From: Pseudoxanthomonas sp. CF385
Lineage (GTDB): Bacteria; Pseudomonadota; Gammaproteobacteria; Xanthomonadales; Xanthomonadaceae
Direction: 5' to 3'
Assembly (NCBI RefSeq): GCF_900104255.1
Contig: NZ_FNKZ01000001.1
Coordinates: forward strand, 774,001-838,000
DNA length: 64,000 nucleotides
The notes below the pieces were generated by a model, which saw nothing but the letters and a program-made list of their open reading frames with translations, ran no database searches and was not told the origin of the DNA. How positions within the stretch are numbered: position 1 is the stretch's first letter; the number at the start of each line of letters is the position of its first letter. This document shows, piece by piece, positions 40,920 through 57,089 of the stretch. Made by a program: the position numbers and the translations under genes.

Positions 40920-42008
40920 TCAGTCGCGCAGGTCCGCCACGTAGCAGTGCGCCTGCATCTGCTCGATCACCGCCTGGGCGGCGACCTGCGTGGACACGCC
41001 GCGACCGCCGGTGGCGAGGTCGTTGGTGAACACCTGGGCGTTCAGTGCCGCGTCCACCGCGCGCTCGATGCAGTCGGCTTCTTCATGCAGGCCCAGTGAG
41101 TGGCGCAGCAGCAGCGCGCAGCTCAGGATGGTGGCGTAGGGATTGGCGATGCCCTTGCCGGCGATGTCGGGCGCGGAGCCATGGATGGGCTCGTACAGGC
41201 CGACCTTGCCGTCGCCCAGCGACGCGGACGGCAGCAGGCCCAGTGAGCCGGCCAGCATCGAAGCCTCGTCGGTCAGGATGTCGCCGAACATGTTCTCGGT
41301 GACGATCACGTCGTACTCGCGCGGCTTGGCCAGCAGGTGCATCGCCATCGAATCGACCAGCTGGTGCTCCAGCTTCACGTCCGGGAATTCTTCGCGGCCG
41401 ATCCGCGACGCCACGTCGCGCCACAGGCGCGAAGTCTCCAGCACGTTCGCCTTGTCCACCGATACCAGGTAGCTGCGGCGCTGGCGGGCCAGCTTGAACG
41501 CGCTTCGCACCACGCGTTCGATCTCGGTGACCGAATAGCTGCACAGGTCGCTGGCGCCGCGCGCATCGCGGGTCTTCTCGCCGAAGTAGATGCCGCCGGT
41601 CAGCTCGCGCACCACCACGATGTCCACGCCGGTCAGCAGGTGCGGCTTGATCGGCGAGGCGTTCAGCGCGGCCGGGTGCGGACGCACCGGGCGCAGGTTG
41701 GCGAACAGGCCCAAGCCCTTGCGCAGCGCCAGCAGGCCCTGTTCGGGACGCACCTTCGCGTTGGGATCGGACCACTTCGGTCCACCGACGGCGCCCAGCA
41801 GCACGGCGTTCGCCTGCTGGCAGCCCTGCAGCGTCGCCTGCGGCAGCGGCTCGCCGTGGCGGTCGATGGCGATCCCGCCGATGTCGTACTCGTGGAAGTC
41901 GAAGCTGTGGCCGTGGCGGCGCGCCAGCGTGCGCAGCACGGTGATGGCGGCGGCGGTGACTTCGGGGCCGATGCCGTCCCCGGGCAGTACGGCGATGTCA
42001 GCGTGCAT
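40920..42008 (-). CDS. leuB: 3-isopropylmalate dehydrogenase
   Basis: A 362-residue NAD-dependent decarboxylating dehydrogenase converting 3-isopropylmalate to 2-oxo-isocaproate in leucine synthesis. Gly-Asp-Gly-Ile-Gly-Pro-Glu near residue 10 is the family start, and [10 protein letters not shown] near 136 and [13 protein letters not shown] near 277 form the substrate and NAD sites. The start at 42008 overlaps the leuD end by 11 bases, and the longer frame upstream is the shadow of leuD. Confidence 0.96.
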
Positions 42009-42579
42009 GGCGGGTGGCCTCGTAGGTTTCGATGTCGGTGTGGCGGGCCAGCAGGTAGCCCAGCTCGTCCACGCCTTCCAACAGGCAGGTCTGCGCGAAG
42101 GCATCCAGCGGGAAGCCGAAGACGGAGCCGTCGGGCGCACGCAGTTCGCGCGCGGCGACGTCGATGCTCAGTTCGTCGTCGGGCCGCGCCATCAGCGACT
42201 GCACGATCTCCTCCGGCAGGACGATGGGCAGCAGGCCGTTCTTCAGGCTGTTGTTGCGGAAGATGTCGGCGATCTCGCTGCTGACGATGGCCCGCAGGCC
42301 CAGGTCGGTCAGCGCCCAGGGCGCGTGCTCGCGCGAGGAGCCGCAGCCGAAGTTGCGGCCGGCCAGCAGGATGCTGCGGCCCGTGTTCTCCGGCTGGTTG
42401 AACGGGAACGCCGGGTTCGGCGACCCGTCGGCCTGCCAGCGCCAGTCGTTGAAGGCGTTCTTGCCCAGGCCTGCGCGCTCGGTCGTGGACAAGAAGCGCG
42501 CGGGGATGATCTGGTCGGTGTCGATGTTGGTCTGCGCCAACACCACGCTCTTCGAGCGCAATTCGCGGAAGCCGGCCAT
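41998..42579 (-). CDS. leuD: 3-isopropylmalate dehydratase small subunit
   Basis: A 193-residue small subunit of isopropylmalate isomerase. [10 protein letters not shown] near residue 20 and [12 protein letters not shown] near 78 are diagnostic. It pairs with LeuC. Its ATG overlaps the leuC stop (TGATG). Confidence 0.96.
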
Positions 42580-44000
42580 CACGCCACCTCCTTGTGCGCG
42601 GCGAACAGCTCGCGCGGATCGCTGACGCGACCGTTCACCGCCGCCCAGGCGGCGGTCAGCGGCGACGCCAGCAGGGTACGCGCGCCGGGACCCTGGCGCC
42701 CTTCGAAATTGCGGTTGCTGGTGCTCACGGCGAGCTGGCCCGGTGCGACCAGATCGCCGTTCATCGCGATGCACATCGAACAACCGGGCTCGCGCCACTC
42801 GGCGCCGGCCTCGCGCACGACGCGGTCGATGCCCTCGGCCTCGGCTTCGCGCTTGACGATCTCCGAACCCGGCACGACCAGCATGCGTACGCCCGCGGCG
42901 ACCTTGCGGCCGCGCAGGACCTGCGCCACTTCGCGCATGTCGCGCAGGCGGCCGTTGGTGCAGGAGCCGACGAACACCACGTCCACCGGCGTGCCCGCCA
43001 CCGCCTGGCCGGCGCTCAGGCGCATGTAGTCCAGGCCCTTCTGGTCGGCGGCGTCGGCGGGCGCGGGAATCGGCGCGTCGACCGCGATCGCGGTACCCGG
43101 GTGCGTGCCCCACGTCAGGGTGGGGCGGATGTCGGCGGCGTCGATGCGCACCTCCGCATCGAACACGGCGCCTTCATCGCTGCGGAGCGTCGTCCAGTAG
43201 GCGACGGCCGCGTCGAACGCAGCGCCCTTCGGGCCAAGCGGCGTGCGCGCCACCCAGTCGAACGTGGTCTGGTCCGGCGCCACCATGCCGGCGCGCGCGC
43301 CGGCTTCGATCGACATGTTGCACAGGGTCATGCGCTGCTCCATGTCCAGCGCCTCGATGGCGCTGCCGCGGAACTCGAGCACATGGCCGGTACCGCCGTT
43401 GACGCCGATCACGCCGATCACGTGCAGCACGATGTCCTTGGCGCCGACGCCGGGCGCCAGCGCGCCGTCGACGGTGATCGCCATGGTCTTCGGACGGCGC
43501 TGCAGCAGGCACTGCGTGGCCAGCACGTGGCCGACTTCGCTGGTTCCGATGCCGAACGCCAGCGAACCGAACGCGCCGTGCGTGCTGGTGTGGCTGTCGC
43601 CGCAGACGATGGTCATGCCGGGCAGGGTGAAGCCCTGTTCCGGCGCGATGACGTGGACGATGCCGCGGTTCGGCGACGCCATGTCGAACAGCTCGATCCC
43701 GTACCGGGCGCAGTTGCGCGCCAGCGTCTCAACCTGCGTCTCGGCGGCCTTCGTGTAGTAGGGCAGCTTGCCGTCGGCACCGGCAGGCAGGGTGGGCGTG
43801 GAGTGATCCATCGTCGCCTTGGTCCGGTCGGGGCGACGCGGCGCGATCCCGCGCGAGGCGAGCTCGGTGAAGGCCTGCGGCGAGGTGACCTCGTGGATCA
43901 GGTGCAGGTCGATGTACAGCACGGCGGGAGCCGCGTCGGTCTCGGGGACGACGACGTGGGCGTCCCACAGTTTGTCGAACAGGGTGCGTGGCGCGGTCAT
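42579..44000 (-). CDS. leuC: 3-isopropylmalate dehydratase large subunit
   Basis: A 473-residue aconitase-family subunit carrying a [4Fe-4S] cluster. The cluster Cys residues are seen in Gly-Ser-Cys-Thr-Asn-Gly-Arg near 347 and in Pro-Gly-Cys-Ser-Met-Cys near 407. [12 protein letters not shown] near 131 is the family fingerprint. The start at 44000 ([10 protein letters not shown]) fits LeuC homologues. There is a 47-base gap to leuA upstream. Confidence 0.96.
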
Positions 44001-44047: not shown

Positions 44048-45601
44048 TCAGGCGGCCGCCGCTTCCTGTTTCTCGATGCGACGCTGGCGCAGCAGGCGGT
44101 TGGCGACATCCAGCCAGGCCAGCGCGCTGGCTTCGATGATGTCCTTGCTGGTGCCGGTGCCCTGGTACTCCTCGCCCTCGCAGCGGACCGACAGGCTGGC
44201 CTCGCCGCGCGCATCGGCGCCGATGCCGACGCTGTGCACCTGGTAGCTCTCCAGCTGCAGCTGCACGCCGGTGGCGGCGGCGAGTGCGCTGAACAGCGCG
44301 TCGACCGGGCCGTTGCCCTGCGCGGTTTCGGACACGCGGTTGCCGTCCGGGTCGGACAGTTCGACCAGTGCGTTGGCGCGGCTGCCGACATCGCTGATCG
44401 TCATCGAAGCCAGGCGGTAGCCGTCGCTGACCGCCGCGTCCTGCATCAGCGCCTGCAGGTCGGCATCGCCGACCACGCGTTGTTTCTCGCACAGGGCCTT
44501 GAACTGTTCGAAGACCAGTTTCAGTTCGTCCTCTTCCAGCCAGTAACCCAGTGCGCGCAGGCGCTGTTCGACCGCGGCGCGGCCGCTGTGGCGGCCCAGC
44601 ACCATCTGCGACGACGGCCAGCCCACGTCCTGCGGCTGCATGATCTCGTAGGTGCCGCGATGGCGCAGCATGCCGTGCTGGTGAATGCCGGATTCATGCG
44701 CGAACGCGTTCAGGCCGACGATGGCCTTGTTGCGCTGGACGGGCATGCCGACCAGGCGCGACAGCAGCTGCGAGGTCGGCACGATGCGGCGCGTGTCGAT
44801 GCGCGTATCCAGGTTGTAGAACGCGTTGCGGACCTTCAGCGCCATCACCAGTTCCTCGATGGCGCAGTTGCCCGCGCGCTCGCCGATGCCGTTGATCGAG
44901 CCTTCCACCTGGCGTGCGCCGCCTTCGATGGCCGCCAGCGAATTGGCCACGGCCAGGCCCAGGTCGTTGTGGCAGTGGGCGCTGAACACCACCTTGTCGG
45001 CGCCCGGCACGCGGGCGATCGCGCGCTCGAACATGCCGCGGATCTCCTCCGGCGTGGTGAAGCCCACCGTGTCCGGCAGGTTGATGGTGGTCGCGCCGGC
45101 GGCGATGGCCGCGGCGATGGCCTCGTGCAGGAAATCCTCCTCGGTGCGGGTCGCGTCCTCGGCGGAGAACTCGATGTCGTCGATATGGCCACGGGCCAGG
45201 CGCACGTGCTTGTCGATGGACTCCAGCACCTGCTCGCGGCTCATCCGCAGCTTGTGCTCGCGGTGCAGCGGGCTGGTGGACAGGAACAGGTGCAGGCGCG
45301 GCTTGGCGGCGGCGGTCACCGTGCGCAGCGAGGTCTCGATGTCCGTGGCCAGGCAGCGCGACAGCACGACCAGGGTGGTGTCGCGCAGCTCGCGCGCGAT
45401 CTGCGCATGCGCCTCACGGTCGGACTGCGAACTGGCGGGGAAGCCGGTCTCGATCGCGTCGACGCCGAGTTCGGCCAGGCCGCGCGCCATCACCACCTTC
45501 TGTTGTGGCGTCATGCTGCAGCCGGGGGATTGCTCGCCATCGCGCAAGGTCGTGTCGAAGATGCGGATATGCGCGGGGGAAGGGTGGGTGGGCGTGTTCA
45601 C
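44048..45601 (-). CDS. leuA: 2-isopropylmalate synthase
   Basis: A 517-residue enzyme condensing acetyl-CoA with 2-oxoisovalerate, the first committed step to leucine. The TIM barrel starts with Asp16-[15 protein letters not shown] near 205 supplies metal ligands, and the C-terminal domain (about 390-517) is the Leu-binding regulatory domain. The GTG at 45601 overlaps the ilvA stop by four bases (GTGA), so the two are translationally coupled. Length is typical of feedback-regulated LeuA. Confidence 0.95.
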
Positions 45602-46731
45602 CAGATGGGTTCCTCGTGTACTTCGGTTTCCATGACGGCGGCTTCGAAACGTCGCACACCGGTCTTCGCGGGGGAAAGGGGGATGGCCGCGCGGGAAGCG
45701 CGGCCCTTGGCAGGCGAAGGTTCGCCCTCGGCGGTGCGGCGGCGCGGCTTGCGCGGCGGGCGCGGACGCACGTCGGACAGCAGTTGCGCCAGCACGGTGG
45801 CGTCGATATTGCCGCCGGAAACGACGGCGCACTTGCGCTTGCCGGCCACGCGACGGCCGGCGGCCAACGCCAGCGCGCCGGCACCTTCGGCGATCAGGTT
45901 CTCTTCCAGCGCCAGCCGCACCAGGGTCTCGCGCAGCTCGGCTTCACGCACGATCACCACGTCGTCCAGCAACTGCGTGCACAGGCGGCGGGTGATGAAG
46001 CCGGGCACTTTCACCCGCACGCCATCGGCCAGCGAGGCGACCGGATCCTTCGGGGCGGTGTCGCCCTTCATCGCGCGGATCATCGAATCCACGCCCTCGA
46101 CCTGGGCGCCGACCACGCGCACACCCTGCGACTTCAGCGCCAGCGCCACGCCCGAGGCCAGGCCGCCGCCGCCGATCGGGACGATGACGACGTCAGGCGT
46201 GTAGGGCGCGATCTCGATGCCCACCGTGCCCTGGCCGGCGATCACGTCCGGATCGTCGAACGCGGACAGGAACCGGTAGCCGTTCTGCTCGGCCAGCTCC
46301 TTCGCGAAGGCGAACGCCTCGTCGTAACTGTTGCCATGCTGGCGCACGGTAGCGCCCCAATGGGCGACGCCGGCGATCTTGGTTTCCGGTGCGCCATGCG
46401 GCATCACGGTGATCGCCTGCACGCCCAACCGATATGCGGCCCAGGCCAGGCCTTGGGCATGGTTGCCTGCGGACGCCGCGATCACCGGCCGCTGGTCGCC
46501 GCGCTCGCGCCCGGCCAGCAAGGCATTCAATGCGCCGCGGACCTTGTACGAACCGGTGCGCTGCAGGTTCTCCAGTTTCAGCATGACGCCGAAACGCTCG
46601 GCGTGGTGCAGCGGCGTTGGCGGCAGATACCGGCGCAGCCGCGCCTGCGCCGCCAGCACGTCGGCCACGGTGACGACGACGTCGCCTACGTCCGGTTCGT
46701 TGCTGGCGGGGGCGCGGCCGGCATCAGGCAT
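45598..46731 (-). CDS. ilvA: threonine dehydratase, short form without ACT-like regulatory domain
   Basis: A 377-residue PLP enzyme converting threonine to 2-oxobutyrate for isoleucine synthesis. The PLP Lys63 is in Gly-Ser-Tyr-Lys-Val-Arg-Gly, and the phosphate-binding loop is Gly-Gly-Gly-Gly-Leu-Ala-Ser-Gly near 190. The catalytic domain ends near residue 320. Biosynthetic IlvA of about 510 residues carries two ACT-like domains for isoleucine feedback; here that part is missing and is replaced by about 55 basic, Pro/Arg/Ala-rich residues partly encoded by a GC palindrome. Feedback control may therefore be lost or supplied elsewhere (inference). Operon position supports a biosynthetic role. 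Confidence 0.9.
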
Positions 46732-46803: not shown

Positions 46804-47076
46804 TCATGCAGCGCGGTCCTGGTGGCGACGATCCCGGCTCAGCTCCTGCACGGCACTGAAGGACAGTTCCTCCACGTCGTAGATTTTCAGCAGCTGCTGG
46901 CGCAGGGTTTCCGGCGCGCGGGTACTGTCGATCACGATCGCCAGGGCCCAATAGCCTTCGCTGTCATGGGTGGCATGCACCGCATGGGGCGGAAAGCCAC
47001 GACGCTCGATCATGCCCAGGACGCGGATCAGCGCGCCTTCGGCAGGTTTGAGCTTCAGTTCAAGCCGGTAACGCAT
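46804..47076 (-). CDS. ilvM: acetolactate synthase II small-subunit-like ACT protein
   Basis: A 90-residue ACT-domain protein ([22 protein letters not shown]), the size and placement of IlvM, the small subunit that pairs with IlvG. GGAG precedes the ATG at 47076. It overlaps the ilvG end by 17 bases. Its usual role is to activate the synthase; short IlvM proteins give weak valine inhibition. Confidence 0.85.
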   Translation of the reverse strand: MRYRLELKLKPAEGALIRVLGMIERRGFPPHAVHATHDSEGYWALAIVIDSTRAPETLRQQLLKIYDVEELSFSAVQELSRDRRHQDRAA

Positions 47077-48808
47077 TCTTTTTCTCCGGGCCGTCGGCCG
47101 CGTCGGCAGGCTCGGCGGATGGTTTCGCGGGATTGGCATCCAGCATCGAGCTGTTGGCGTGGTTCGGCGGCACCAGCGGCCAGACGTTCGCCTTGATGTC
47201 GATGGTGACGTGCAGCAGGGCGGGGCCGGGCTGGGCCAGCAGATCGGCCAGGGCGTCCTCGACCTCGTCGCGCAGGCTGATGTGGCGGGCCGGGATGCCG
47301 AACACGCGCGCCAGTGCGGCGAAGTCCGGGTTGTCGGACAGGTCGATCTCGCTGTAGCGCTCGGCGAAGAACAGTTCCTGCCACTGCCGCACCATGCCCA
47401 GCGCGCTGTTGTCGATCAGCACGATTTTCACGGGCAGCTTGCAGCGGGCGATGGTGGCCAGCTCCTGCACGTTCATCATGAAACCGCCATCGCCGTTGAC
47501 CAGGATGACGGTGCGGTCGGGGCAGGCGAACTGCGCGCCCATCGCCGCCGGCAGGCCGAAGCCCATCGTGCCCAGCGCGCCGCTGGTCAGGTGGTTGCGC
47601 GGATGGGTGAACTTGCAGTGCTGCGCCACCCACATCTGGTGCTGGCCCACGTCGCAGGCGACGATCGCATCCGCCGGCGCCACTTCGCTCAACCGCTTCA
47701 GGAGGCCGGGTGCGTAGATGTCGGTGCCGGGTGCGTCGTAACGGAAACCGAAGCGCTCGCGATTCGCCATGCAACGCTTGCGCCATTCTTCGCAGGTGCT
47801 GCGTGCGGCACCCAGCGTACGCAGGCTGGCGGCGACATCCCCGGGCACGGCGACGTCGGCGGTACGCAGCTTGCCGATCTCGTAGGCATCGGCATCGATA
47901 TGCAGCACGCGGGCGAACGGGGCGAACTCGGCCAGCTTGCCGGTGGCGCGGTCATCGAAGCGCGCGCCGACGACGATCAGCAGGTCGCATTCCTGCACCG
48001 CCATGTTGGCCGCCCGCGTGCCGTGCATGCCCAGCATGCCCAGGTAATGCGGGTGGCTGGCGGGCAGGGCGCCCAGGCCACGCAGGGTCAGTACGGTGGG
48101 GATCTTGGTCGCATCGACGAACTGGCGGAACGCATCCACCGCGTCTGCGATGCCGATGCCGCCGCCGCCGTAGATCACCGGCTTCTCGGCGCCGGCGATC
48201 GCGGCCAGCGCATCGGCCAGCTTCGCGTCCTCCGGTGTCGGGATCGGATCGACGCTGGCCGGCACGTGGTCCGGCAGATGCGAGGCATCCGACATCTGCA
48301 CGTCCTTGGGCAGGTCGATCAGCACCGGGCCGGGCCGGCCTTCGCGCGCGATGCGGAAGGCTTCGCGCACCATCTCCGGCAGATCGTCCACGCGCCGCGC
48401 GACGAAGCTGTGCTTCACGATCGGCAGGGTCAGGCCGAACACGTCCAGCTCCTGGAACGCATCGGTGCCCATCAGCGTGGTGGCGACCTGGCCGGTCAGG
48501 CAGACCATCGGCACCGAATCCAGCATCGCGTCGGCGATGCCGGTCACCAGGTTGGAGGCGCCGGGGCCCGACGTGGCCACGCACACGCCGACCTTGCCGC
48601 TGGCGCGGGCATAGCCGTTCGCGGCCAGCGCGGCCCCCTGCTCATGCCGCACCAGGATGTGCTTGAGGTTGGAATCCACCAGCGCGTCGTAGAACGGCAT
48701 GATGGTGCCGCCGGGATAGCCGAACAGCGTGTCCACGCCCTCGGCTTCCAGGGCGTGGGCCAGCCAGCGGGCGCCATTGCGTGGGGCAGTGGCCGCGGCG
48801 GCGTTCAT
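47060..48808 (-). CDS. ilvG: acetolactate synthase large subunit
   Basis: A 582-residue thiamine-diphosphate and FAD enzyme making acetolactate or acetohydroxybutyrate, the shared step to Val, Leu and Ile. The catalytic Glu is in Val-Arg-His-Glu-Gln-Gly-Ala near residue 51. The TPP motif Asn-Gly-Asp-Gly-Gly-Phe-Met-Met-Asn near 437, ending in Leu-Ile-Asp-Asn, is complete. The start at 48808 overlaps the ilvC stop (ATGA). The final 25 residues are an Ala/Pro/Lys-rich extension that overlaps ilvM. Confidence 0.95.
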
Positions 48809-49812
48809 GCGGCGGCCTGCTCGTCTGTCTTCGGTTGCGGGGCGTTGGCCTGCAGCCACACCATCTTCGCGCGCAGTTCCTTGCCGACCTTCTCGATCGG
48901 GTGGTCCTTGTCCGCCTGCTGGAACTTCTTGTAGTTCGGCAGGCCCGCGTCGTACTCGGCCTGCCAGTTGCGGGTGAAGGTGCCGTTCTGGATATCGGTC
49001 AGCACGTCCTTCATGCGCGCCTTCACCGAGGCGTCGATGACGCGCGGACCGCTGACGAAGTCGCCGTACTGCGCGGTTTCGGAGATGAATTCCAGCATGC
49101 GGGTGATGCCGCCTTCGTAGAACAGGTCGACGATCAGCTTCAGTTCGTGCAGCACTTCGTAGTAGGCGATCTCCGGCTGGTAACCGGCTTCCACCAGCGT
49201 CTCGAAGCCGGCCTGTACCAGCGAGGAAGCGCCGCCGCACAGCACGGCCTGCTCGCCGAACAGGTCGGTCTCGGTCTCTTCCTTGAAGGTGGTCTTGATG
49301 ATGTTGGCGCGCGCGCCGCCCAGGCCGCCGGCGTAGGCCAGCGCGAACTGCTCGGCCTTGCCGCTCTTGTCCTGGTGGACGGCGTAGATGCAGGGCACGC
49401 CACGGCCGATCTCGTACTCGCGACGCACCAGCGCGCCCGGGCCCTTCGGCGCGACCAGCACCACGTCCAGGTCGGCGCGCGGTTCGATCATGCCGAAGTG
49501 GACGTTGAGGCCGTGCGCGAACAGCAGCACGGCGCCCTGCTTCATGTTCGGCGCCAGCACGTCGGCATAGAGCTTCTTCTGCACCATGTCCGGCGTCAGC
49601 ACCGCGACCAGGTCGGCGTCCTTCACCGCGTCGGCCGGCGCCTTCACCACGAAACCATCGGCCTCCGCCTTGGCTTCCGTCGGGCCGCCCGGGCGCAGGC
49701 CCACCGTCACGTCGAAACCGGAGTCGCGCAGGTTGAGCGCGTGCGCGCGACCCTGGCTGCCGTAGCCGACGACGGTGATCTTGGGATGCGGGAGAGCGTT
49801 GGCGGTGGTCAT
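48805..49812 (-). CDS. ilvC: ketol-acid reductoisomerase (NADP+)
   Basis: A 335-residue class I enzyme that rearranges and reduces acetolactate or acetohydroxybutyrate, requiring Mg2+ and NADPH. The dinucleotide site is Gly-Tyr-Gly-Ser-Gln-Gly near residue 17. Metal ligands are expected in the Asp-Leu-Phe-Tyr-Glu-Gly-Gly-Ile segment near 195 and the nearby Glu residues. ATG at 49812 has AGGA upstream; the frame continues to 49872 through the attenuator and is not coding there. It is the first structural gene of the ilvC-ilvG-ilvM-ilvA-leuA-leuC-leuD-leuB run, downstream of the attenuator. Confidence 0.96.
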
Positions 49813-49860
49813 GGTGCGGGTTTCCTGAGGGTTGATGGGGAATCGAAGGGGCTTAAACAA

Positions 49861-49890
49861 AAAACCCCGCACTTCTCAGTGCGGGGTTTT
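49861..49890 (-). terminator. transcription attenuator of the ilv/leu operon
   Basis: On the minus strand the RNA can form a 13-bp stem (arms AAAACCCCGCACT and AGTGCGGGGTTTT, loop GAGA) directly followed by further T residues. It lies between the leader peptide stop (49913) and ilvC. An alternative pairing is visible: the segment complementary to 49929-49936, inside the leader ORF, is identical to eight bases of the terminator 3' arm and can pair with the 5' arm, which would block the terminator. The competing structures are inferred. Confidence 0.85.
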
Positions 49891-49912
49891 GCGAATCTGG
49901 CGTTTCTGCTGC

Positions 49913-50026
49913 TTACACGCCGGTCCGTCCCGCACTTGTGGGCGAGGTAATAAGGACGAGTACGAGGAAGGACGCCGCAGCGGATGCGGTGGGGTCGTTC
50001 GTCGTGGGCGTGTGGCGCTGCAACAT
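49913..50026 (-). CDS. ilv operon leader peptide (37 residues) with branched-chain control codons
   Basis: The ORF starts ATG at 50026 and ends TAA at 49913-49915. Residues 20-26 are Phe-Leu-Val-Leu-Val-Leu-Ile, six consecutive branched-chain codons (CTC GTA CTC GTC CTT ATT), several rare in a GC-rich genome. They lie before an antiterminator segment and a strong terminator, the arrangement of classic ribosome-mediated attenuation that senses Leu, Val and Ile tRNA charging. No good ribosome site precedes the ATG, so initiation may be leaderless or start elsewhere in frame. A competing frame from 50042 shows no such codon run. Confidence 0.78.
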   Translation of the reverse strand: MLQRHTPTTNDPTASAAASFLVLVLITSPTSAGRTGV

Positions 50027-50033
50027 GCAGCAA

Positions 50034-50062
50034 GAGAAACATGCCGCTCCGAACCGTGTCAA
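50034..50062 (-). promoter_or_regulatory. candidate promoter of the ilvC leader transcript
   Basis: On the minus strand TTGACA (50062-50057) matches the -35 consensus exactly. A 17-base spacing ends at TTTCTC (50039-50034), a poor -10. The expected start is near 50027, one or two bases from the leader ATG. The -35 is strong and the -10 weak, which fits an activator-dependent promoter. Confidence 0.4.
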
Positions 50063-50177: not shown

Positions 50178-52019
50178 ATGCCCGAGTACCGTTCCAAGAC
50201 GTCCACCCACGGCCGCAACATGGCCGGCGCCCGCGCGCTCTGGCGCGCCACCGGCATGAAGGACGAGGACTTCCACAAGCCCATCGTCGCGGTGGCCAAC
50301 TCCTTCACCCAGTTCGTGCCCGGGCACGTGCACCTCAAGGATCTGGGTCAATTGGTTGCACGTGAAATCGAACGGGTAGGCGGGGTCGCCAAGGAATTCG
50401 ACACCATCGCCGTCGACGACGGCATCGCGATGGGCCACGACGGCATGCTGTACTCGCTGCCGTCGCGCGAGGTCATCGCCGATTCGGTCGAGTACATGGT
50501 CAACGCGCACTGCGCCGATGCGCTAGTGTGCATCTCCAACTGCGACAAGATCACCCCCGGCATGCTGATGGCCGCGCTGCGGCTCAACATCCCCACCGTG
50601 TTCGTGTCGGGCGGCCCGATGGAAGCCGGCAAGACGCGTCTGGCCGATCACAAGCTCGACCTGATCGATGCGATGGTGATGGCCGCCGACCCGAACGCCA
50701 GCGACGAAGAGGTCGCCGCCGTCGAACGCAGCGCGTGCCCCACCTGCGGCTCGTGCAGCGGCATGTTCACCGCCAACTCGATGAACTGCCTGACCGAGGC
50801 GCTCGGCCTGTCGTTGCCGGGTAACGGGACGGTCGTGGCCACGCATGCCGACCGTGAGCAGCTGTTCAAGCGCGCGGGTGTGGTCGCCGTGGAGCTGTGC
50901 CATCGCTGGTACGGCGGCGAAGACGCGACGGCGCTGCCGCGCGGCATCGCCACATTCGAGGCGTTCGAGAACGCGATGACGCTCGACATCGCGATGGGCG
51001 GTTCCACCAACACCATCCTGCATCTGTTGGCCGCGGCGCAGGAGGGCGAGGTGCCGTTCGACATGCGCGACATCGACCGCCTGTCGCGCCGCGTACCGCA
51101 GCTGTGCAAGGTCGCGCCGAACACGCAGAAGTACCACATCGAGGACGTCCACCGCGCCGGCGGCATCATGGCGATCCTCGGTGAACTCGCGCGCGGCGGC
51201 CTGCTGCATACCGGGGTCGCCACCGTGCATGCGAAGTCGCTGGGTGATGCGATCGCGAAGTGGGACGTCACGACCAACGACGATGACGCCGTCACGACCT
51301 TCTACAAGGCGGGGCCGGCCGGCATTCCCACCCAGGTCGCCTTCAGCCAGGCCACGCGCTGGCCCTCGCTGGACACCGATCGCGCCGAAGGCTGCATCCG
51401 CAGCGTCGAACATGCGTTCTCGCAGGAGGGCGGCCTGGCCGTGCTCTACGGCAACATCGCGGCGGACGGCTGCGTGGTGAAGACGGCCGGTGTGGACGAG
51501 TCCATCCACGTGTTCGAAGGCACCGCGCGCGTCTTCGAAAGCCAGGATGCGGCAGTGGCCGGCATCCTCGGCGATGAGGTGAAAGCGGGCGACGTGGTCG
51601 TCATCCGTTACGAAGGCCCCAAGGGCGGGCCCGGCATGCAGGAAATGCTGTATCCGACCAGTTACCTGAAGTCGAAAGGGCTCGGGAAACAGTGCGCGCT
51701 GCTGACCGATGGCCGTTTCTCGGGCGGCACCTCCGGCCTGTCGATCGGACACGCCTCGCCCGAAGCGGCGGCGGGCGGCGCAATCGGTCTGGTGCGCGAC
51801 GGCGACCGCATCCGCATCGACATTCCGCAACGCACGATTTCGCTGCTGGTCTCCGACGAGGAGCTGTCGGCGCGTCGCGCGCAACAGGACGCGAAAGGGT
51901 GGAAGCCCGCGCAGCCGCGTATGCGCAAGGTCAGCACCGCACTGAAGGCTTACGCCCTGCTCGCGACCAGCGCCGACAAGGGTGCGGTACGCGACAAGCA
52001 GCTGCTGGATGGTGTCTGA
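50178..52019 (+). CDS. ilvD: dihydroxy-acid dehydratase
   Basis: A 613-residue Fe-S enzyme producing the 2-oxo acid precursors of Val and Ile (2-oxoisovalerate also feeds LeuA). Cluster Cys residues are in Cys-Ile-Ser-Asn-Cys-Asp-Lys-Ile near residue 118 and Cys-Pro-Thr-Cys-Gly-Ser-Cys-Ser-Gly near 190. Gly-Pro-Lys-Gly-Gly-Pro-Gly-Met near 482 and Thr-Asp-Gly-Arg-Phe-Ser-Gly-Gly-Thr are typical. It is divergent from ilvC and completes the pathway. Between ilvC and ilvD (49813-50177) I see only the leader, attenuator and the promoter elements. Confidence 0.96.
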
Positions 52020-54953: not shown

Positions 54954-54960
54954 TCGCGCC

Positions 54961-57089
<2,129 letters not shown>

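Follow-up and report, generated by a model that had tools for sequence, protein, structure and literature searches.

Ribosome-mediated control of the ilv and leu operons is textbook knowledge, and a survey of proteobacterial attenuators by Vitreschak et al. in 2004 reportedly covered the branched-chain amino acid (BCAA) operons of the gamma-proteobacteria and may include Xanthomonas. A Xanthomonas start-site paper by Schmidtke et al. is said to date from 2012. In E. coli and Salmonella, attenuation of leu, ilvGMEDA and ilvBN is treated in passages of PMC1183508, which also deal with the idea that control codons are rare and with its critique in terms of selective charging. Upstream ORFs rich in branched-chain codons are likewise described for the ilvB-II and ilvB-OMG motifs, which lie before ilvB (PMC10272879) and which, going by that description, differ from the element considered here in gene and lineages. 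No description of a xanthomonad ilv attenuator, or of a leaderless leader peptide in the order, was found in searches of open PMC papers, and priority is uncertain.

Here, a locus within a 64,000-nucleotide stretch of DNA from Pseudoxanthomonas sp. CF385 (the window) was examined. The observed pairings, their conservation and a marked codon bias make it highly probable (roughly 0.9) that a ribosome-mediated transcription attenuator governs the ilvCGM-ilvA-leuA-leuCDB operon, with a start site, ribosome stalling, tRNA sensing and termination that are predicted from these features.

The leader ORF and the operon in the window

Translation of the leader ORF, which extends from an ATG at 50026 to a TAA stop at 49915-49913, gives the 37-residue peptide MLQRHTPTTNDPTASAAASFLVLVLITSPTSAGRTGV. 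An initial annotation of this DNA had proposed a 37-codon minus-strand ORF with six consecutive Leu, Val or Ile codons, and such an ORF is present at 50026-49913 (Table 1). Three ORFs in the window combine a run of at least five Leu, Val or Ile codons with a subsequent stem and T tract; the leader ORF is the sole short one and has a run of six, the remaining two being inside frames that measure 226 and 297 codons from stop to stop. The description of several run codons as rare holds for CTT, GTA and ATT, which account for 2.0% of Leu, 3.5% of Val and 2.9% of Ile codons respectively (17,688 codons from 43 window ORFs chosen by a simple rule), but not for CTC (16% of Leu) or GTC (38% of Val). 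A search with three leader peptides against the Pfam and NCBIfam profiles returned no families at E≤10.

An attenuator placed ahead of ilvC and the ilv/leu genes, as annotated initially, is consistent with the eight-gene operon found downstream. The order ilvC-ilvG-ilvM-ilvA-leuA-leuC-leuD-leuB runs on one strand, with overlaps at five of the seven junctions and gaps of 72 and 47 nt at the others, and seven of the eight genes pass their NCBIfam cut-off, ilvM falling below. The ilvD gene in this genome is transcribed divergently and is outside the attenuator's control. A TPP riboswitch is also present in the window, on the plus strand at 54956-55056 (58.6 bits, cut-off 54.3).

Table 1. Features of the attenuator locus and the neighbouring genes, with positions given in window coordinates.
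Feature	Position	Strand	Remarks
Predicted -35 element, TTGACA	50057..50062	-	begins 36 nt 5' of leader ATG
Weak extended -10-like element, TGTTTCTC	50034..50041	-	poor TATAAT match
Leader peptide ORF, 37 codons	50026-49913	-	putatively read from leaderless 5' AUG
Control codons CTC GTA CTC GTC CTT ATT (L V L V L I)	49966-49949	-	six in tandem
Candidate 1:2 (protector) hairpin	49947-49930	-	arms 49947-49941 and 49936-49930 (inside segment 2)
Segment 2, antiterminator 5' arm, AGTGCGGG	49936-49929	-	identical to first 8 bases of terminator 3' arm
Stop-codon stem inside antiterminator	49927-49892	-	leader TAA (49915-49913) in loop
Segment 3, terminator 5' arm	49890-49878	-	49885-49878 also pairs with segment 2
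Segment 4, terminator 3' arm (49873-49861) and T-run	49873-49858	-	
Terminator, 13 bp, 4-nt loop, T-run	49890-49861	-	stem begins 22 nt past stop codon
ilvC, ketol-acid reductoisomerase	48805..49812	-	TIGR00465, 414.6 bits, cut-off 226
ilvG, acetolactate synthase II catalytic subunit	47060..48808	-	NF006524, 931.9 bits, cut-off 738 (scored on 47060-48826)
ilvM, acetolactate synthase II small subunit	46804..47076	-	NF008362, 38.8 bits, below cut-off 68
ilvA/tdcB-type threonine dehydratase	45598..46731	-	NF006455, 693 bits, cut-off 489
leuA, 2-isopropylmalate synthase	44048..45601	-	TIGR00973, 630.5 bits, cut-off 598.7 (scored on 44048-45619)
leuC	42579..44000	-	TIGR00170, 650 bits, cut-off 560 (scored on 42579-43994)
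leuD	41998..42579	-	TIGR00171, 190 bits, cut-off 116 (scored on 41998-42636)
leuB	40920..42008	-	TIGR00169, 476 bits, cut-off 353
ilvD	50178..52019	+	TIGR00110, 833.5 bits, cut-off 618; divergent, shared upstream region

Distribution of the leader among relatives

Among the best 80 of 593 loci in an IlvC scan of named genomes, 24 (L002-L025) either belong to the Xanthomonadales by name or show an IlvC identity of at least 69%. The leader stands directly before ilvC in eight of these (L002, L003, L004, L006, L007, L008, L011 and L013) and before an ilvD that precedes ilvC in five (L009, L010, L012, L020 and L024), while just the clipped end of a leader is visible at L015. In seven loci of Rhodanobacteraceae type (L014, L016-L019, L022 and L023) the leader is found near the start of the examined stretch, and a LeuA motif follows 170-185 nt past the leader stop; neither ilvC nor ilvD was seen to have a leader immediately ahead of it in these loci, the element sitting further upstream, before leuA. 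At L021, L025 and L005 the stretch examined yielded no leader match; by eye, that of L005 appears to open where the terminator ends.

Fourteen leaders, that of the window among them, went into a covariance model (R1); some were supplied by the 395 family genomes that were searched with it. R1 matched 309 of the 395 at E≤0.01, ten of them weakly (E of 1.4e-4 or higher), and 299 at E≤1.4e-6. An ilvC gene over cut-off was present in 299 of the same genomes, and comparison of the two lists by eye revealed 297 genomes with both a strong leader and ilvC and 94 with neither, indicating that the leader goes with the pathway. The genomes with ilvC and no strong leader are G306, where ilvC runs from base 342 of the contig, and G088, where the leader scores E 0.005; those with a leader and no ilvC over cut-off are G339, which has a partial ilvC, and G363, which has 9% contamination. 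When 15 leader-negative genomes were checked, ilvC was over cut-off in none, the control being positive in 14 of 14. Genomes lacking both occur within genera in which others have both (g4, g42 and g51). Judged by these two markers, ilvC and the leader, the distribution suggests repeated loss of BCAA synthesis in the family.

A search of the order with R1 matched 106 of 200 genomes at E≤1e-4, 74 of which lie outside the window's family. In the class, 57 of 369 genomes matched at E≤0.01, five of these being from the window's own family or order, and no match above 40 bits was found outside the order among the 369. Fifteen of the weaker class loci (L149-L163) were inspected, and a leader-like ORF is present in L149, L150 and L154; L162 precedes an acetolactate synthase gene, and the remainder are doubtful or not leaders.

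The gene downstream varies. In 63 further loci (64 minus the weak L141) the leader precedes ilvC in 39, ilvD in 22, leuA in one and a contig end in one, and for 20 leaders taken from the 74 genomes matched outside the window's family it is ilvD in 15, leuA in three and ilvG in one, with none found in one. Going by gene order, the element is placed before whichever gene heads the predicted operon, be it ilvC, ilvD or, in sister families, leuA. Individual loci of this kind include L148 (G758, a sister family), with a BCAA leader before leuA, and L149 (G759, another family of the class), with a divergent leader-like ORF before leuA and TTGACA 37 nt before its ATG. At L172 (G022:C2:162864-162980) a separate leuA-like gene has a leader of its own, SLLLIGLLL, encoded mostly by Leu codons and with an exact TTGACA ahead; the same genome also has a mixed leader before ilvD.

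Conserved pairings in the leader RNA

The terminator with a T-run that the initial annotation had placed upstream of ilvC, after a 22-base gap, is present with its 13 bp, and the eight leader bases reported to match its 3' arm can indeed pair with its 5' arm. Segment 2 begins 12 nt past the run and occupies the positions 14-21 nt ahead of the stop codon. The stop-codon stem is formed by CGGA (49927-49924) with TTCG (49895-49892) and by GGCGT (49921-49917) with ACGCC (49903-49899), and the candidate 1:2 hairpin contains one C-A mismatch in the window genome.

Alignment A2 comprised 71 leaders (69 distinct rows), drawn from 61 of the 63 loci above, L109 and L110 having been dropped as near-copies, and from 10 named loci. 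Alignment among relatives had been proposed as a check on the locus, and the codon run, terminator and antiterminator all passed it; loss of the run with persistence of the terminator was seen in none of the 71 leaders, which were found with a model that included the run, G306 and G088 being outside the set. The antiterminator is paired in 95.9% of cells in A2, as against 37-62% when slid. Five of its eight pairs are of a single standard pair type and its double-changed pairs (two) are not above those in shuffles. In its informative pair, 50 rows have UA, 12 have CG and two have UG, and five are unpaired. The terminator is paired in 96.7% of cells, with double changes at six pairs. At the base that the two structures share in the antiterminator informative pair, 18 rows lack the terminator pairing and five lack the antiterminator pairing; the antiterminator is better kept there than the terminator.

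The stem between segments 2 and 3 has a mean z of -1.61 (72% below -1, n=69); in the window, as in most ilvC-type rows, it spans the stop codon. In an alignment of 40 ilvC-type leaders made from sequence only, the stop-codon stem is paired in 86.5% of cells, compared with 16-49% when slid, and six pairs show double changes; one pair of the stem is AU in 20 leaders, UA in 10, GU in four and other in six. The inner helix alone is paired in 60.1% of cells in A2 (30-54% when slid), probably because distant leaders fail to align there. The UA state requires three changes on the IlvC tree, at least two of them on well-supported branches, indicating that the compensatory events are real but few and that counts against shuffles overstate them; an independent-pairs test on the clearest pair of the stem had too few pairs to be informative.

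The hairpin just 3' of the run (1:2) is paired in 92.2% of cells, with three double-changed pairs, in an alignment whose model held these pairs. The third hairpin of the initial annotation, GTCC with GGAC, exists in the window; no covariation is seen in relatives, and one of its four pairs is broken in 40 of 69. It pairs in 79.5% of cells (32-62% when slid) with no double change in any pair, and was not adopted as the protector.

Conservation in the same region could feasibly reflect a leader peptide that is a functional product in trans, like peTrpL of Sinorhizobium, for which a trans role is on record (PMC7298713), with attenuation being secondary. The C-terminal SPTGAGRTG is largely conserved in ilvC-type leaders, as would be expected of such a peptide, but the overlapping RNA arms can explain this conservation, and a Thr/Ser change in the peptide goes together with a base change located 3' to the ORF. 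Moreover, the N-terminus varies, as does the C-terminus in other lineages, and a role in trans is accordingly considered very unlikely to be the primary one.

Choice of control codons

Within the run of the 69 distinct leaders, counted as six codons per leader with a few rows out of register, Leu is encoded by CTC (53.7%), CTT (45.2%) and CTG (0.5%, one of 188 codons), Val by GTC (49.0%), GTA (43.7%) and GTG (5.3%, n=151), and Ile by ATT (98.5%, n=65). Genes in the window, by comparison, use CTG for 74.6% of Leu, GTG for 57.2% of Val and ATC for 96.3% of Ile codons. The control codons shun the commonest synonymous codons. Choice of isoacceptor fits the use of CTC and CTT, but not that of ATT over ATC, because one tRNA reads both of the latter, and the ATT preference therefore suggests that decoding speed or a need for an unstructured run may act too. 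Whether control codons are selected by tRNA isoacceptor or by decoding speed thus becomes a testable question.

Promoter and start of the leader transcript

Only one of the 1,526 ATGs on both strands of the window, that of the leader, has an exact TTGACA 35-39 nt upstream. A sigma-70 consensus scan found no promoter. In the first 14 leaders, TTGACA lies 36-38 nt 5' of the leader ATG in all 14. In eight of these, just one in-frame ATG precedes the run, so that no start choice was made there, and all eight are spaced at 36-38 nt. In the larger set of 71 leaders, 69 have an exact TTGACA and two a version with one mismatch; the hexamer begins 36-39 nt before the ATG in every case despite ATG-to-run distances of 17-43 codons, the ATG in the 63- and 71-leader sets having been picked partly by its closeness to TTGACA. 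The base before the ATG (-1) is C in 90% of the 71, and T occupies -13 in 79% and -12 in 85%.

Leader ATGs have a mean anti-Shine-Dalgarno energy of -1.26, with four of 71 at -4.5 or lower, as against a mean of -3.64 at the starts of downstream genes, 21 of 67 of which reach -4.5 and some of which were mis-picked. By this measure, the leader start codon appears to be without a Shine-Dalgarno sequence across the 71 leaders. The arrangement extends to other families of the order, in which TTGACA (at most one mismatch) is located 35-38 nt before the best-fitting ATG in 19 of 20 leaders. The sole exception is L223, where the alternatives are a site at 41 with two mismatches and one at 36 with three; one of the 20 reaches an anti-Shine-Dalgarno energy of -7.3. 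Six leaders of Rhodanobacteraceae type that are long enough to judge have a TTGACA site with at most one mismatch at 36-37. L154, from another family, provides a contrast, with an ilvL-like peptide that by eye is preceded by a Shine-Dalgarno sequence.

The fixed spacing of TTGACA, the C at -1 and the weak Shine-Dalgarno interaction together indicate that the leader mRNA is probably leaderless, with a transcription start that probably coincides with the leader ATG or lies no more than about 3 nt from it. Alternatively, the attenuator may be real and the leader ORF translated conventionally from a longer 5' UTR, with the spacing between TTGACA and ATG having some other cause. The poor -10 element and the unsuccessful consensus scan are compatible with this, as are the few leaders with stronger anti-Shine-Dalgarno energies, the single strong case in other families included. 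Nevertheless, a conventional start is improbable, given that the spacing is held while the ATG-to-run distance varies and is the same at the eight loci with a single in-frame ATG, and given the bias at -1 and the difference in mean energy from downstream starts.

The sequence nnGCAnCGC after the leader ATG is kept in the window (50026-50015) and in relatives, the rest of the N-terminus being variable; G is found at +6 in 86% of leaders, and C at +7 and +12 in 89% and 93%. Perhaps this conserved sequence is a signal for leaderless initiation. A leaderless start, if true, would mean that the first ribosome loads once the 5' end clears the polymerase, without the delay imposed by a UTR, and whether leaderless initiation suits ribosome-mediated attenuation is amenable to testing.

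Folding and proposed mechanism

Folding was examined with a ribosome stalled at the run, leaving RNA free from 8 nt past the last control codon. Under these conditions 2:3 folds in 68 of 69 transcripts ending at segment 3, and 64 of 69 full-length leaders have the terminator (3:4) as their minimum-energy fold. When no ribosome is present, 2:3 forms in 61 of 69 transcripts ending at segment 3, and the full-length leader adopts 3:4 in 66 of 69 cases. Placing a ribosome at the stop codon gives 3:4 in 69 of 69, a value that does not test segment 2, since all RNA upstream of the assumed footprint was omitted by construction. Because 3:4 prevails at full length and 2:3 forms even without a ribosome, the switch must depend on timing, as classic attenuators likewise do.

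The preference for the terminator in ribosome-free, full-length leaders, together with a peptide that matches no Pfam or NCBIfam family, would also fit a plain terminator or small-RNA gene ahead of ilvC, with an incidental short ORF. Such an explanation has little to commend it, however, as leaders from many genera share the run, the choice of synonymous codons in it and the pairing of segments 2 and 3, and the element precedes whichever BCAA gene leads the operon. The reading as tRNA-charging attenuation, put forward in the initial annotation, is supported by the conservation of run, terminator and antiterminator in the comparison.

In the proposed attenuation mechanism, RNA polymerase would initiate at the leader AUG or within ∼3 nt of it, and ribosomes would load onto the near-leaderless 5' end. 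Scarcity of charged Leu-, Val- or Ile-tRNA would slow the leading ribosome at CTC-GTA-CTC-GTC-CTT-ATT, permitting segment 2 (AGTGCGGG) to pair with segment 3 once that emerges; the 2:3 pairing, enclosing the stop-codon stem, would preclude the terminator and the operon would be transcribed. With all three tRNAs charged, the ribosome would reach the stop codon, melt the stop-codon stem and cover at least part of segment 2, such that 3:4 would terminate transcription near 49858. In the event of no translation, the 1:2 hairpin would form together with 3:4 and give basal termination.

Asparagine-rich leaders and other related elements

A weak match to R1 elsewhere in the window's genome (L164/L180, G000:C2:366577-366715, minus strand) lies before asnB and contains an Asn-rich leader peptide, MPCRATIANNRNNLRPNNGTGAVRLCD, with a terminator. 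A model built from three such leaders matched 67 of 149 family genomes at E≤0.001, and the matching genomes come from 27 of 54 genera. BCAA leaders or reverse-strand terminators account for some of the lower-scoring matches. All of the best-scoring 30 loci have a short ORF with 4-10 Asn codons, and an asnB-like start is located downstream in 29; a TTGC-type -35 element is found 35-37 nt before the chosen ATG in 25 of the 30, an earlier ATG having been taken in the other five. As far as its sequence goes, the asnB element looks like a leaderless asparagine-dependent attenuator, which, if true, would extend attenuation to another amino acid; no report of an Asn attenuator or asnB leader was found in a search of open PMC papers.

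Two further loci, L168 (G052:C2) and L169 (G005:C27), have leader-like ORFs ending in TTFTWAGSAGSGHV and TNFTWAHRAGIGHV respectively, with TTGACA upstream and a terminator. Both precede a small ORF and a gene that is MarR-like by eye, and no obvious amino acid run is apparent.

On balance, and with some reserve, we favour the existence of a Lysobacterales (Xanthomonadales) family of attenuators on one plan, in which a promoter is joined straight to a leaderless leader ORF, the control codons are in tandem, and a segment of the leader repeats the terminator 3' arm. The family would comprise a Leu/Val/Ile class, at the head of BCAA operons, with control codons that shun the commonest ones and a stop-codon stem, and an Asn class, with four to ten Asn codons, before asnB.

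Comparison with known systems

The attenuator is a likely regulator of an operon for which regulation is of importance in plant pathogens. The ilvCGM-leuA operon of Xanthomonas campestris is repressed by indole-3-acetic acid via an upstream reporter fragment of ∼500 bp, in a study whose main text lacks the words attenuat(or) and leader (PMC12575087). At the Xanthomonas loci L007 and L008 the leader ATG lies ∼400 bp before ilvC, and the X. campestris reporter therefore probably contained the attenuator.

Among the described RNA families, the element scores 20.5 bits against Rfam Leu_leader (RF00512, cut-off 50) and 25.6 bits against Thr_leader (RF00506, cut-off 55), and is not filed in either; placement in the leader families of Rfam, Pfam or NCBIfam was attempted, with no match over threshold. 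What it appears to add to known attenuators is a putatively leaderless plan kept over the order, the predicted stop-codon stem, and an element that seems to stand before whichever gene is first.

The ilvGMEDA (ilvL) and leu operons of E. coli and Salmonella are, according to the accounts drawn on here, likewise BCAA operons subject to leader-peptide attenuation. Set beside their descriptions, the present system differs in serving one combined ilv-leu operon, in being probably leaderless, in control codons that shun the commonest ones and in the stop-codon stem nested in the antiterminator. The control codons of Sinorhizobium meliloti trpL are Trp codons. In that system the 5' end of the attenuator RNA likewise coincides with the ATG of the leader ORF (PMC7298713), but the organism is an alphaproteobacterium and the peptide has 14 amino acids. 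Leader peptides of BCAA genes are likewise reported to be transcribed leaderless in Streptomyces lividans (ilvL, leuL and, in the same account, trpL; PMC8079986); compared by description, that system differs in belonging to the Actinobacteria and in having ilvL and leuL peptides of 12-15 amino acids with few control codons.
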